64,000 bases of DNA from Nitrobacter sp. 62-23. GTDB taxonomy: Bacteria > Pseudomonadota > Alphaproteobacteria > Rhizobiales > Xanthobacteraceae. How positions within the stretch are numbered: the stretch's first letter is position 1; every line of letters begins with the position of its first letter. The DNA lies in assembly GCF_001897285.1 (NCBI RefSeq), contig NZ_MKSM01000104.1, positions 1-64,000 of the forward strand. The letters run 5' to 3'. Shown here in pieces: positions 25,492 through 64,000 of this stretch. A program made the position numbers and the translations under genes. The notes beneath the pieces are model-generated. The model saw only the letters and a list, made by a program, of their open reading frames with translations. It had not been told where the DNA came from and did not search any database.

Positions 25492-25644
25492 GCGCAGCTC
25501 ACCTGCAACCGATCGGCCGTATCGATGTTCCGGTCGGATTCGCTGACGCGGGCGCCTCGTGTTGTTCGCGATAGCCCCAACTGTTAGAATCCGCCATTAT
25601 CAGGTGAGAGTGCTCCTCTTTGCCTCTCCCAACCGGTCGAGGAC

Positions 25645-25658
25645 GGGCGTATACGCCC
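25645..25658. promoter_or_regulatory. 14-bp perfect palindrome upstream of dacC
   Basis: GGGCGTATACGCCC reads the same on both strands, about 105 bp before the dacC start, in the 272-bp gap after rlpA. Such a site could bind a dimeric regulator. No promoter elements were placed with confidence. Confidence 0.35.
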
Positions 25659-25763
25659 TTACGCCCTTGGGAAGAGTCGGCACCGTAAGTCTTCGACGCG
25701 CCAGGGTGCCGGATGAGGGGAAACGTGAACCGCTCCAGAACGCTCTAATTCGGAACACGGTGC

Positions 25764-27008: not shown

Positions 27009-27700
27009 TGATCGCGGCCGCGGCCAATGCGGGCCCGGAGCGCGGGCGCTTCATCACCTTCGAAGGCGGCGAGGGGTCGGGCAAATCGACGCAGATCAAG
27101 ATCCTCGCCGAACGCCTGAACGCTGCGAAGCTGCGCACCATCGTCACGCGGGAACCCGGGGGCTCGCCGGGCGCCGAAATCATTCGTCACCTCGTATTGT
27201 CCGGCATGGGAAAGCTGCTCGGCGCCGATGCCGAAACCTTGCTGTTTGCGGCCGCACGCGACGATCATGTTCATACTGTCGTCAAGCCGGCGCTGGAGCA
27301 GGGCATCTGGGTGCTCTGCGATCGGTTTGCGGATTCGACGCGCGCCTATCAGGGACGGCTGGGGAATGTGCTGCCTGGCGTGCTGAACGCGATGGAGAGG
27401 GTCACGATCGGCGATCTCAAGCCTGACCTGACCGTGATTCTCGACATCCCGGTGGAGATCGGAATGCAGCGCGCCGCCGCGCGCCGCGGCAGTTTTGCAC
27501 CGGATCGCTTCGAGGCCGAGGACATTGCGTTTCACCGGCAACTTCGCGACGCTTATCGGGACATCGCCGCCAGCGACCCGCAACGCTGCGTGGTGATCGA
27601 TGCCAATGCCGACGTCGCAACCGTCGCCGCGTCCGTATGGACAGCGCTGCGCGATCGCGTGCTGACTGCGGACCCCGTCAAGGAAGTCACACGCACATGA
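27008..27700 (+). CDS. tmk: thymidylate kinase
   Basis: A 230-residue enzyme that phosphorylates dTMP to dTDP. The P-loop GGEGSGKS is at ~20-27, the DR motif is in VLCDRFADSTRAYQG, and the lid region is ARRGSFAPDRFE. The ATG overlaps the dacC TGA (TGATG), and the tmk stop overlaps the holB start (ATGA), so dacC-tmk-holB are translationally coupled. Confidence 0.95.
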   Translation: MIAAAANAGPERGRFITFEGGEGSGKSTQIKILAERLNAAKLRTIVTREPGGSPGAEIIRHLVLSGMGKLLGADAETLLFAAARDDHVHTVVKPALEQGIWVLCDRFADSTRAYQGRLGNVLPGVLNAMERVTIGDLKPDLTVILDIPVEIGMQRAAARRGSFAPDRFEAEDIAFHRQLRDAYRDIAASDPQRCVVIDANADVATVAASVWTALRDRVLTADPVKEVTRT

Positions 27701-28737
27701 TCGCCCGCTCCACGGCCGCGGAGATATCGGTCAAGCATCCCCGCGAAACGACCGCATTTTTCGGCCATGGCGAGGCGGAGCGAACGTTGCTCGACGCCTA
27801 TCGTGGCGGTCGTATTCCGCACGCATGGCTGATCGGAGGCGCGCCGGGGATCGGCAAGGCGACGCTGGCCTACCGGATGGCGCGATTCGTGCTTGCGCAC
27901 GGCGATCCCGCGCTGTCCGACGTGCAATCGGCGCAGACGCTCGAACTTGACCCGACGCATCCGGTTGCCCGGCATGTCGCGGCCGACACGCATGGCGGAC
28001 TCCTGACATTGGAGCGGATGCCCAACGACAAGGGCGTGTTGCGCACAGTCATCAGCGTGGAGCAGACGCGGGAAACGATCGCCTTTTTCGGTTCGACCGC
28101 GGCCATCGGCGGCTGGCGGGTGTGCATTGTCGATACCGTCGACGAACTCAATCCCAATGCCGCCAATGCGCTGCTCAAGGTGCTCGAGGAGCCGCCGCGG
28201 CGGTCGCTGTTCTTTCTGATCAGTCACGCGCCGGCGCGGCTGCTGCCGACAATCCAGTCGCGCTGTCGCAAGCTGATGCTGCGGCCGCTGGCGACCGCCG
28301 ATGTGATTCGTGCGGCGGCCGAAGCAGGGCGGCTCGCGCCCGACGATGCATCGTTGCGGGAAGCCGCCGACGCAGCGGAGGGAAGCGTGGCGCGGGCGCT
28401 GGCGCTGATGGGGGGCGGAGCGCTGAAGCTCCACCAGCGGACGACGGTGCTGCTGGATAGCCTTCCCCAGGTCGACCCGCGCGAACTGCACATGCTGGGC
28501 GACGCGCTCGGCGGCAGCGATCGAGCCGCGCTCGGCGCCTTCGTCGACAGTGTCGACCGCTGGATCGGCGAACGCCTTCGTGTCGGCGATGCGAACGCCG
28601 ATCTTCCTCGTCTTGCACGGCTCGCGGAGGTATGGGAAAAGATCAACAACGCCGCGCGCGAGACGGAGACCTACAATCTCGAGCGGAAACCGCTGGTTTT
28701 CTCGGTGTTCGGGCTTCTGGCAGAAGCAACGCGATAA
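27697..28737 (+). CDS. holB: DNA polymerase III subunit delta'
   Basis: A 346-residue clamp-loader subunit. A Walker A-like [10 protein letters not shown] is at ~47-56, the segment [11 protein letters not shown] is the conserved delta'/gamma motif, and the SRC motif appears as QSRCRK. It follows tmk, the usual order in proteobacteria, with a four-base overlap. The zinc-binding Cys cluster of E. coli HolB is not evident. Confidence 0.93.
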
Positions 28738-28796
28738 TAACGCTCCGCTCACGATCGTTTTTCAAAACCCCGCCTGAAACTCATAAGGAATTTGTG

Positions 28797-30776
28797 GTGG
28801 CTCCCGCTAAAAAGAAAACGGCAAAAAAATCCCGCGTGAAGCCGCGCAAACAGCGCCGCGTCGTTGCCGCCAAAGCGCGCAGCAAAAAGGCCGGCGCTCG
28901 CAAGATCAGCAAACGCGGAAAGACGAGCGCGAAGGCAACGACGAAAGCGCGCGCGCCGAAGAAGGCCAAGAAAGCCGCAAAGAAGATTGTAAAAAAAACG
29001 GTCAAGCGAAAGGCCAAGAAAACAGCCAAAAAGCGGTCGACGACAAAAGCCCCCCGAAAAACGGCGGCGAAAAAGGGAACTCCAAAACAATCTGTGACGA
29101 AAAAGTCCGTGACAAAAAAGTTTGCGGCAAAACGGCCGGTGACGAAGCGTCCGGCGAGGGCCGTAAAACCCGCACCAACGGTCCCGTCTGATCCGGCTGC
29201 GACTCCGGCATCTTCAAGCGCGCCGCCGTCGAGCGCCAATACGTTCTACATCACGACAGCCATCGTGTATCCGAACGGCGCGCCGCATATCGGTCACGCA
29301 TATGAGGCCATCGCCACGGACGCGCTGGCGCGTTTCCAGAGGCTCGATGGCAAGGACGTCTTTTTTCTGACCGGCACCGATGAGCACGGCCAGAAGATGG
29401 TGCAGACCGCGCAGCGTGAAAACATATCAGCTCTCGAACTCGCCACACGGAACGCCGAATTGCTGCGCAAGCTCGACGAGACCCTGAACATCTCGTTCGA
29501 TCGGTTCATTCGCACCTCGGAATCCGCGCATCATCGCTCGGTGCAGGAAATCTGGAAGCGCATGGCGGCGAACGGCGACATCTATCTGTCGAACTACGCT
29601 GGCTGGTACTCTGTGCGCGACGAAGCCTATTACGCCGAGGACGAGACCGTCGTCGGCGAAGACAACGTGCGGCGCGGCCCGCAGGGCACGCCGGTCGAGT
29701 GGGTGGAGGAAAAGAGCTATTTTTTCAAGCTGTCGTCCTATCAGGACAGGCTGCTCGCGCTGTACGAAAGCCAGCCGGATTTCATAGGCCCGGATTCCCG
29801 CCGCAACGAAGTCGTCAGTTTCGTGAAGGGTGGGCTGAAGGATCTCTCGATCTCGCGCACGACCTTCGATTGGGGCATCAAGGTGCCGGACGATCCCGAG
29901 CACGTCATGTATGTCTGGGTCGACGCGCTGACGAACTACATCACCGGCGTCGGCTTTCCGGACGAGAGCGACAGGAACTGGCGCTACTGGCCTGCCGACG
30001 TTCATATCATCGGCAAGGACATCATCCGCTTTCATGCTGTGTACTGGCCTGCCTTCCTGATGTCGGCGGGCATTCCGTTGCAGAAGCGTGTCTATGCGCA
30101 CGGCTTTCTGTTCAATCGCGGAGAGAAGATGTCGAAGTCGGTCGGCAACGTCGTCGATCCCTTCAACCTCGCCGCACAATACGGCGTCGATCAGATGCGC
30201 TACTTCTTCCTGCGCGAAGTGCCGTTCGGGCAGGACGGCAGCTATAACCACGAGGCGATCGTGGCGCGCATCAATGCCGACCTCGCCAACGACTTCGGCA
30301 ATCTTGCCCAGCGCTCCTTGTCGATGATCGCCAAGCAGCACGACGGCGTGCTGCCCGAGCCCGGAGATTTCAGCGACGCCGACAAGGCGATCCTTGCGCA
30401 GGCCGACGGCATGATCGCGCTCGCGCGAGAAGCGATGAGCACGCAGCAGATTCATCAGGCGCTCAACGCGATCTGGGCTGTCGTCGCCGAGGCCAACCGC
30501 TATTTCGCCGGCGAGGCGCCCTGGGTGCTGGCCAAGACCGATCCGGCGCGGCAGAAGACGGTACTCTATGTCACCGCCGAGGTGGTGCGCCAGATCGCGA
30601 TCCTCGCGCAGCCCGCGATGCCGGCCGCATCCGCCAGGATGCTCGACATTCTCGGCATTCCCGCGGATGAACGAAATTTTGCGCTGCTCGGCGGCCACGT
30701 CCGCATCAAGCCGGGCACGACATTACCGCCGCCGGTCCCCGTGTTTCCGCGCTATGTCGAACCGTCCTTGACCTGA
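28797..30776 (+). CDS. metG: methionyl-tRNA synthetase with Lys-rich N-terminal extension
   Basis: A 659-residue enzyme that charges tRNA-Met. The catalytic core begins near residue 148 with a HIGH-type HIGH box (PHIGHAYE, ~163-170) and a KMSKS loop (KMSKSVGN, ~443-450), followed by the helical anticodon-binding domain. No zinc-knuckle CxxC is seen in the insertion. Residues 1-147 are almost only Lys, Ala, Arg, Thr and Pro ([20 protein letters not shown]), like a histone H1 tail. The start is taken as GTG 28797 with AAGGA at -12; GTG 28794 is possible. No C-terminal Trbp111-like domain is present. It follows holB by 59 bp. Confidence 0.92.
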
Positions 30777-30787
30777 CCGCAAACCAG

Positions 30788-31579
30788 ATGCTTGTCGATA
30801 GTCATTGCCATCTCGATTTTCCTGATTTCGCCGATGAGCTCGACGCTGTCGTCGCGCGCGCAGAAGCGGCAGGGGTGGGGCGCATGGTGACGATCTCCAC
30901 TCGCGTGAGGGAACAGGAGAGGCTGCTTGCGATCGCGGAGCGATTTTCGAATGTCTACTGTTCGGTCGGCACGCATCCGCATCACGCCAACGAAGAGGAC
31001 GGCATCACGCCGGACGAACTCGCCGCGCAGACGCAGCATTCGAAGGTCGTGGCGCTAGGGGAGGCGGGGCTCGATTATTTCTACGAAAACGGCTCACCCG
31101 AGGCGCAGGCGCGGGGATTCCGTGCTCACATCGCCGCCGCCCGCGCCACCGGTCTGCCGCTGGTGATTCACACCCGCGAGGCGGATGAGGATTGCGGACG
31201 CATTCTCGATGACGAAATGGCGAAGGGACCGTTTCGCGGCGTGCTGCATTGCTATACTGGCGGCCGCGAACTCGCGATGAAGGCTGTTGCGCTTGGATTG
31301 TACATCGGCTTCACCGGAATCCTGACGTTCAAGAAATCCGATGCGTTGCGCGCGCTCGCTGCCGAGTTGCCCGAGGATCGCATTCTGGTCGAGACCGATG
31401 CGCCATATCTTGCACCCGGCAAGTTTCGCGGCAAGCGCAACGAACCCTCCTATGTCGTGGAGACGGCCAAGGTGCTGGCCGATGTGCGCGGCGTTTCGCT
31501 CGAAGAGATGTCACGGCAGACCACGGAAAATTTCTTCCGGCTGTTCTCCAAAGTGCCGCGCGGGGAGGTAATCGCATGA
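30788..31579 (+). CDS. TatD-family metal-dependent hydrolase (DNase-like)
   Basis: A 263-residue TIM-barrel hydrolase with the TatD metal ligands: DSHCHLD at 4-10, GEAGLDYF near 92, HTREA near 128, LHCYTG near 154, and ETDAPYLAP near 203. Family members are 3'-5' exonucleases or D-tyrosyl-tRNA-deacylase-like hydrolases. It lies 11 bp after metG, and its stop overlaps the next gene (ATGA). Confidence 0.93.
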   Translation: MLVDSHCHLDFPDFADELDAVVARAEAAGVGRMVTISTRVREQERLLAIAERFSNVYCSVGTHPHHANEEDGITPDELAAQTQHSKVVALGEAGLDYFYENGSPEAQARGFRAHIAAARATGLPLVIHTREADEDCGRILDDEMAKGPFRGVLHCYTGGRELAMKAVALGLYIGFTGILTFKKSDALRALAAELPEDRILVETDAPYLAPGKFRGKRNEPSYVVETAKVLADVRGVSLEEMSRQTTENFFRLFSKVPRGEVIA

Positions 31580-62459: not shown

Positions 62460-64000
62460 TCAGCGGCCTTCAAACGCTCCAGCGCCTCGACGAACTTCGC
62501 CTTGCGCGCAACTGCTGCTTCCCGCTTTTCCTTTTCATCCTCGACAATATCTTCGGGCGCGTTGGCGATGAAATTCTCATTGCCGAGCTTCAAGTCGACC
62601 CGCATGATATCGGCATCGGCCTTGGCGATCTCCTTCTCCAGACGTGACCGCTCGGCGGCGAGATCGATGACGCCCTTCAGCGGCAGCGCGGCGACTTCAC
62701 CGCGGATCAGCAGTTGCACCGAGCCAGCCGGCGGGCTTTCTACCGAGATCGTCCCCGATACTCTCGCCAATCGATTGAGCATGCTGTCCCAAGCTCGAGC
62801 TAACTCGAATGTCTTAGACGACGGCTTTATTAGCGCGAGTTGAACCATCGTTCTTGCTGGAACGTTCATCTCGGTGCGTATTGAGCGGATCTCTGTAATA
62901 AGATCAATTCCCCAGCCGATCTCGGCCTCCGCCGCGTCGTCGCGGAAATAAGGTTTCGACGGATTGGCAAGCGGCTCCGGCGCGGAATAGGGATCGCAGG
63001 CGACCGCCTCGAGCAGCGCCTGCTGCTGGTCGGTGAGTTCGGCCTTGACCGACCACGGAGACAGCGTCAGCAATTCTGTCCGCTCCGATGTCACCGCCCA
63101 CAACTCCTCGGTGATGAACGGCATGAACGGGTGCAAAAGTTTCAGGATTTCATCGCGCGCCCATGCGACCATGGCGCGGGTCTCCGACTTGGCGGGTCCG
63201 TCCTCGCCGATCAGAACAGGCTTTGCGAGTTCGAGATACCAGTCGCAATAGACGTTCCAGACAAAGCGGTAGATTTCACCGGCGGCGTCGTTGAAGCGAT
63301 AACCTTCAATGGCCGCGGTGACTTCGCTCGTGGCACGCGCGGTCTCGTGAACGATCCATCGGTTGAGCGTTTCCTTCGCGGCGGTGGGATCGAACCGAGC
63401 GGGAACGGCGCACTCGTTCATTTCCGCGAAGCGGCAGGCGTTCCAGAGCTTGGTCGCGAAATTGCGATAGCCTTCGACCCGCTGCGGCGACAGCTTGATA
63501 TCGCGGCCCTGCGCCGCCATCGCCGCGAGCGTGAAGCGCAGCGCATCGGCGCCGTATTTGTCGATCAGATGCAGTGGATCGATGACGTTGCCCTTCGACT
63601 TCGACATCTTCGCGCCGCTCTCGTCACGGACGAGCGCGTGAATGTAGACCGTGGGAAACGGCGCTTTCTTCATGAAATGGAAACCCATCATCATCATCCG
63701 GGCGACCCAGAAGAAGATGATGTCGAAACCGGTGACCAGCACGTTGGTCGGATAGTAGCGTTTCAACTCCGGCGTCGCGTCCGGCCAGCCGAGCGTCGAG
63801 AACGGCCACAGCGCCGAAGAGAACCAGGTGTCGAGCACATCCTCGTCGCGGGTGATGAAGCCATCGCGTTTTGCCGGATCGCTCGCCATTTCGGCGCCCT
63901 GCTCCGCGGTGATGACACCCTGTTCGACATAATAGCCGAGCGCATGGCCGACGGCTTCGTCCTCGGTCTCCGCGACGAAGACCTTGCCGTCCGGGCCATA
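62456..64000 (-). CDS. valS: valyl-tRNA synthetase, C-terminal part (cut by the window edge)
   Basis: About 514 residues of a class I synthetase enter from the right edge. Visible are part of the connective insertion and catalytic domain (DVLDTWFSSALWPFSTLGWPD, begins near 63835), the KMSKS loop in GAKMSKSKGN (~63590), the anticodon-binding domain and the C-terminal coiled coil (ERSRLEKEIAKADADIMRVDL). The start lies outside the window. It charges tRNA-Val. The stop overlaps the MFS gene start. Confidence 0.95.
   Translation of the reverse strand, partial: YGPDGKVFVAETEDEAVGHALGYYVEQGVITAEQGAEMASDPAKRDGFITRDEDVLDTWFSSALWPFSTLGWPDATPELKRYYPTNVLVTGFDIIFFWVARMMMMGFHFMKKAPFPTVYIHALVRDESGAKMSKSKGNVIDPLHLIDKYGADALRFTLAAMAAQGRDIKLSPQRVEGYRNFATKLWNACRFAEMNECAVPARFDPTAAKETLNRWIVHETARATSEVTAAIEGYRFNDAAGEIYRFVWNVYCDWYLELAKPVLIGEDGPAKSETRAMVAWARDEILKLLHPFMPFITEELWAVTSERTELLTLSPWSVKAELTDQQQALLEAVACDPYSAPEPLANPSKPYFRDDAAEAEIGWGIDLITEIRSIRTEMNVPARTMVQLALIKPSSKTFELARAWDSMLNRLARVSGTISVESPPAGSVQLLIRGEVAALPLKGVIDLAAERSRLEKEIAKADADIMRVDLKLGNENFIANAPEDIVEDEKEKREAAVARKAKFVEALERLKAAE

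Follow-up and report, generated by a model that had tools for sequence, protein, structure and literature searches.

The methionyl-tRNA synthetase (MetRS) of Nitrobacter sp. 62-23 begins with a long, very basic tail of lysine and alanine that resembles histone H1 in composition. We examined this tail in a 64,000-nucleotide stretch of the genome (the window) and in related loci from other genomes and found on a bacterial MetRS an appendix with a conserved start and charge that is nonetheless present in some relatives and absent from others. The long Lys-rich synthetase appendices described in PMC6213541, PMC8319005, and PMC3306390 are eukaryotic, and the passage of PMC6213541 that deals with the human LysRS appendix calls it absent from prokaryotic LysRS. 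No description of a Lys-rich tail on a bacterial MetRS was found in the open-access titles and abstracts searched, which is weak evidence, as the subscription literature lies mostly outside such a search. We consider the chances about even that the tail is a flexible, non-specific tether for tRNA and other RNA, comparable to the Lys-rich appendices of eukaryotic synthetases.

The gene, metG, is a single open frame that follows holB and precedes a tatD-family gene on the plus strand of the window (Table 1). The initial annotation had described an unbroken frame that runs from a GTG with an upstream AAGGA through a basic segment into MetRS, and this description is upheld by the open frame and by the conservation of its start. 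Of 105 tailed loci, 84 have an AAGGA no more than 16 nucleotides away from the start chosen for them. A second GTG, at 28794, directly precedes the one at 28797. Among related tailed loci, 73 match the motif [EDQ][FSI][VI]VA (VVA-type loci); in these, the codon equivalent to 28797 is always GTG and the codon equivalent to 28794 is GTG in 48, GTC in 19, ATC in 3, GTT in 2, and GTA in 1. Because the motif itself requires valine at the former position, the result is an invariable preference for GTG over the other three valine codons, as expected of a start. From this comparison, GTG 28797 is very probably the start of metG. A start at 28794 is less likely, given the variation of its equivalent codon, and the mechanical start of the open reading frame (28632) lies inside holB and is not conserved; one related locus (L002) has a stop shortly 5' of the tail. 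Another group of tailed loci, which includes Afipia, starts with ATG (MAKAKKT...).

Table 1. Features of the metG locus in the window
Feature	Position	Strand	Basis or remark
holB	27637-28737	+	NF005677
Shine-Dalgarno-like AAGGA	28785-28789	+	7 nt 5' of metG start
metG GTG start codon	28797-28799	+	GTG at equivalent place in 73/73 VVA-type loci
metG tail, basic Lys/Ala segment, residues 1-124	28797-29168	+	Translation, composition by fifths; boundary by eye
metG tail, Pro/Ala/Ser linker, residues 125-147	29169-29237	+	Translation, Pro 21% in last fifth; boundary by eye
MetRS catalytic and anticodon-binding core, residues 148-659	29238-30773	+	TIGR00398 512.7 bits, NF008900 659.7 bits
HIGH motif, MetRS residues 164-167	29286-29297	+	Translation
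KMSKS motif, MetRS residues 444-448	30126-30140	+	Sequence
metG stop codon	30774-30776	+	
tatD-family gene	30788-31579	+	TIGR00010

Two observations could have removed the tail from the protein, a stop codon within 28797-29237 and a translation start close to the core, near 29230. No stop was found there; the window's frame is open, as are all nine loci of its genus between the start and the core (for one of them, L007, from the contig end, where its sequence begins). A start near the core is impossible with the usual codons in 51 of the 105 tailed loci, where the last 30 codons 5' of the core include no ATG, GTG, or TTG; in 6 of the 105 the last 100 codons include none. In the window's metG, GTGs precede the core by 33, 43, and 48 codons, so that, for the window taken alone, a shorter MetRS product is possible. 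On the minus strand, a 152-residue frame (28781-29239) shows no sign of being a gene and is probably open because Lys and Ala codons give no stops on the other strand.

Translation and family matches confirm that the 147-residue tail is joined to a normal MetRS core from residue 148 on. TIGR00398 matches residues 150-628 above its curated cut-off of 336.35 bits, NF008900 matches residues 147-653, and both the HIGH and KMSKS motifs are present. The closest solved structures are MetRS chains (4dlp, 2x1l, 5xet, and others), which align from residue 140-149 on.

We defined loci as tailed if the 200 residues of open frame that lead up to the core contain at least 10 lysines; in 209 loci these counts are bimodal (0-7 or at least 10), with L147 (10 lysines, Arg-rich) as a borderline tailed case. 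The 105 tailed loci, which represent 102 distinct sequences (L051=L034, L061=L039, and L070=L011), have tails of median length 141 and median net charge +46, with 29% Lys, 27% Ala, 35% Lys plus Arg, and 1.4% Asp plus Glu; these figures include L147, for which the automatic start picker was wrong, and L138, for which it chose a start too far in. Composition by fifths was calculated from 103 tails, leaving out these two loci. Lys plus Arg accounts for about 45% of the first two fifths and for 19% of the last, proline rises from 2-3% at first to 21% in the last, and hydrophobic residues make up 0.7-2.3% of each fifth. Lys-Lys spacings of 4, 5, 8, 9, and 12 are over-represented, and spacings of 2, 6, 7, and 10 under-represented, relative to shuffles within fifths. 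The tail thus consists of a Lys/Ala segment with KKxxKK spacing, which repeats at about 4 residues and could align charges if the chain turns helical, followed by a Pro/Ala-rich linker. AlphaFold2 models most of the tail as coil at pLDDT of about 40; the whole model is poor (mean pLDDT 54, pTM 0.37), so the view that the tail is probably disordered rests on composition. As a strongly basic, acid-poor extension outside the core, the tail has the composition of a Lys-rich synthetase appendix. Scanned alone against Pfam and NCBIfam, it matches no family.

The longest tail, of 242 residues, occurs in an Afipia metagenome-assembled genome (L055); its Lys part is separated from the core by PVSETPVSETP-type repeats. 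Within the window's genus, locus L007 (genome G007; positions 1-437 of the locus) has a core 94% identical to the window's and a tail of other sequence, ending ARSLVADTAQKIRDVVGDVVTAVLKPLTSAQR. A search of the nine genus genomes with this tail returned itself and three weak matches (E 0.02-0.09), and no sister MetRS tail; the tail may have been exchanged as a whole, or the search may be blind to low-complexity sequence.

We evaluated selection in 36 close pairs of tailed loci with cores 92.7-99.4% identical; L138 and L147 belong to none of these pairs. Gaps placed without regard to frame are multiples of three in 124 of 127 cases, and in protein-guided alignments third positions change most (1005, versus 304 and 293). 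Pooled dN/dS is 0.35 for the tail and 0.06 for the core; with dN of 0.16 and 0.021, respectively, amino acids change about 8 times faster in the tail. Judged by these patterns, the tail is protein-coding and changes as protein. An A<->G change turns lysine (AAR) into arginine (AGR) at position 2 and into glutamate (GAR) at position 1, and the codon aligner scores K/R and K/E exchanges alike. Single-base exchanges in tails were K/R (AAR<->AGR) in 60 cases and K/E (AAR<->GAR) in 17 (binomial p 9e-7); the core shows the same preference (38 versus 5), so this test alone indicates constraint on charge and not function. Transversions of Ala codons to acidic codons, relative to other Ala transversions, numbered 9 versus 106 in tails and 21 versus 47 in cores (Fisher p 1e-4). 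By this codon-level evidence selection keeps the tail basic, and the favoured positive charge would fit nucleic-acid binding. The earlier description of an H1-like, very basic N-terminal tail accordingly gains in substance: start, frame, and composition are conserved in the genus and in Bradyrhizobium, and charge is under selection. The tail-coding stretch was also considered as a structured RNA and rejected as such (z -0.82; 17 of 100 shuffles fold as well).

The tail is present in all nine genomes read from the window's genus. It is patchy in the one GTDB family to which Bradyrhizobium and Afipia belong, occurring in 40 of 92 genomes read, which are a non-random draw, as long frames were fetched first from 150 listed of 179 matching genomes. 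By name, among the best 80 of 586 loci, which therefore lean towards the window's core, tails occur in Bradyrhizobium (56/56) and Afipia (4/5) and are lacking in Rhodopseudomonas (0/2) and Rhodoplanes (0/2); the Tardiphaga locus (L117), counted as 0/1, is cut before its N-terminus and is uninformative. Outside the family, no tail was found in 46 genomes read, comprising 37 and a further 9 from a phylum search, of which three belong to the window's order, one to its class, and five to other classes; frames left unread (<575 aa in the listed family, <=580 aa in the order, and <=564 aa in the class) could hold no more than about 70 extra residues, so that short basic tails would be missed. Outside the class, the survey covered MetRSs at E 1e-60 or better, present in 68 of 150 genomes. 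A core tree built from 122 of 161 non-redundant rows requires at least 15 changes of tail state, a count that rests partly on weak branches, as 46 of 119 inner branches are open. Similar tails with the same junction occur in distant family members (L022, L026, L132-L134, L138, L139, L144, and L153), and the cores of tailed and untailed relatives are 81-86% identical. By the core phylogeny, the tail is an optional trait, gained or lost repeatedly within one alphaproteobacterial family. Comparison of metG N-termini, as recommended in the initial annotation, therefore gives a split answer, with composition conserved in the genus and in Bradyrhizobium and presence patchy in the family.

Such turnover, together with the fast evolution and variable length of the tail and the commonness of 4-residue gaps (36 of 212), is what we would expect if short Lys/Ala repeats grew in frame at a tolerant N-terminus, under weak selection and with little use. 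We regard this as unlikely, because it sits poorly with the tail's dN/dS, its few acidic residues, and its retention in all nine genus genomes and, among the best 80 of 586 loci, throughout Bradyrhizobium. The window's tail also has hardly any DNA-level tandem repeats, with a single array of 2.6 copies of 15 bases, and this scarcity speaks against fresh slippage of DNA repeats as the sole cause of the tail.

Our preferred reading is the tRNA/RNA tether. About 124 H1-like Lys/Ala residues and a flexible Pro/Ala linker would form a translated, probably disordered appendage that binds phosphate backbones electrostatically, takes on some helical structure when bound, and serves as a non-specific RNA tether in cis. 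In this way, tRNA (including initiator tRNA) would be locally more concentrated and reside longer at a MetRS without an OB-fold tRNA-binding domain. Considered as sequence, a long basic, acid-poor chain with a linker and selection on charge makes nucleic-acid binding the most likely role and, on a synthetase, tRNA the first candidate. The appended domain of human LysRS is reported as disordered, becoming helical with polyphosphate and binding tRNA, other RNA, and DNA non-specifically (PMC6213541); Lys-rich extensions are said to be important for binding tRNA in a number of organisms (PMC8319005), and OB-fold fusions to aid several synthetases, including a MetRS core (PMC11286949). Against the tether, untailed relatives with nearly the same core manage without a tail, and results for yeast GlyRS, as given in PMC3306390, run contrary to a Lys-rich insert improving tRNA binding. 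Furthermore, the human LysRS domain bound DNA about as well as tRNA (PMC6213541), so composition is no pointer to tRNA. Natural tailed and untailed pairs (Bradyrhizobium or Afipia versus Rhodopseudomonas) allow a direct in vivo test of a non-specific basic tether.

The eukaryotic synthetases with Lys-rich appendices are class II enzymes. The tail described here belongs to a bacterial class I enzyme and comprises about 124 basic, Ala-rich residues plus a Pro linker, and its likeness to the eukaryotic appendices is one of composition. These are likewise N-terminal, very basic, and without fixed sequence, and they are disordered, as the MetRS tail probably is; their charged region is shorter, spanning about residues 19-40 in human LysRS (PMC6213541).

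Other Lys-rich proteins of the window's own genome bear on a different reading, in which the tail binds the nucleoid, as H1-like proteins or the lysine repeats of topoisomerase I do, and places MetRS near DNA or nascent transcripts. The pattern AKKxAKK has 7 matches in the genome and 1 in a backward control; 2 lie in the MetRS tail, 3 in a free H1-like Lys/Ala protein (L170; C31, about 25565-25741), 1 in a very short Lys-rich frame (L175; C109, about 37057), and 1 in a Lys/Ala C-terminal tail of DNA topoisomerase I (TopA; L176; C134, about 13221). TopA was confirmed by family search, as PheT was; the remaining Lys-rich proteins were judged by eye, and the free H1-like protein has no NCBIfam match at E 0.01. 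The looser pattern KKxxKK gave 34 matches versus 24 in the control, and among its 30 loci in this genome no other synthetase with such a tail was seen by eye. Small proteins with Lys-rich C-termini are encoded at C82, about 24737 (L193), and C99, about 84631 (L200).

The tail shares its composition and AKK repeats with the free H1-like protein and the TopA tail, and lysine repeats stabilise Streptomyces TopA on DNA (PMC7398561). Such repeats, which like the MetRS tail occur in GC-rich bacteria and have been compared to histone H1, are known from Streptomyces and mycobacteria and noted in Caulobacter and Bordetella; they differ in being C-terminal, on a DNA enzyme, and linked to processivity (PMC7398561). 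We nevertheless think attachment to DNA distinctly improbable. No task on DNA is known for MetRS, and in growing cells RNA is more abundant as a polyanion than DNA. When the human LysRS domain was purified in E. coli, what came with it was mostly RNA (PMC6213541). The H1-like family NF038053 scores 14.3 bits against full-length MetRS (residues 3-145), far below its cut-off of 80; its members are free-standing, and the likeness is again one of composition.

Polyphosphate is another candidate ligand. The tail might bind it, or enter RNA-rich condensates under stress, and so tune MetRS. Polyphosphate bound Lys-rich regions of two translation-linked E. coli proteins (PMC12345225, which also cites its binding to lysine stretches), and lysine/RNA condensation is described (PMC6606616); the tail, however, is poor in acidic residues, unlike the polyacidic PASK motif, and we hold out only a slim chance for such a sensor. 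More broadly, an H1-type tail might physically couple the charging of methionine and initiator tRNA to the nucleoid, the ribosome, or the cell's polyphosphate state, with lineages switching the coupling by tail gain and loss, an idea that we rate as rather improbable.

A further comparison for the tRNA/RNA tether is the C-terminal Trbp111/EMAPII-like OB domain of many MetRSs, likewise an optional appendage thought to help tRNA binding (PMC11286949), which differs in being folded and at the other end of the protein. The initial annotation had noted its absence and suggested that the tail replaces it. A Pfam scan indeed found no tRNA_bind domain (PF01588) in the window's MetRS; the sole match in its genome is PheT, and each of the nine genus genomes has one match. 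In all 207 loci with a core of at least 480 aa, tailed or untailed, 495-573 aa lie between the start of the core and the end of the protein, so that untailed relatives have no room for a Trbp111-like domain either. The missing domain thus stands, and the tail as stand-in for a recently lost one was rejected, since untailed relatives are equally without it. Two untailed genomes of the order, G038 and G040, carry another small frame with a tRNA_bind match (136 and 206 aa). Against the tether in general, core charge showed no consistent sign of compensation, as the direction differs between the close clade (mean net charge -13.7 in 94 tailed versus -11.7 in 22 untailed loci) and the remaining loci (-4.0 in 10 versus -12.3 in 81), with kinship ignored in both comparisons. 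G040 also has, beside its normal gene, a second divergent MetRS-like stretch (C4:387363-388885) with two adjoining matches of 46% and 36% identity. In the window, positions 63500-63844 on the minus strand match part of the MetRS core at 38% within a 997-aa open frame, which is perhaps another class I synthetase.
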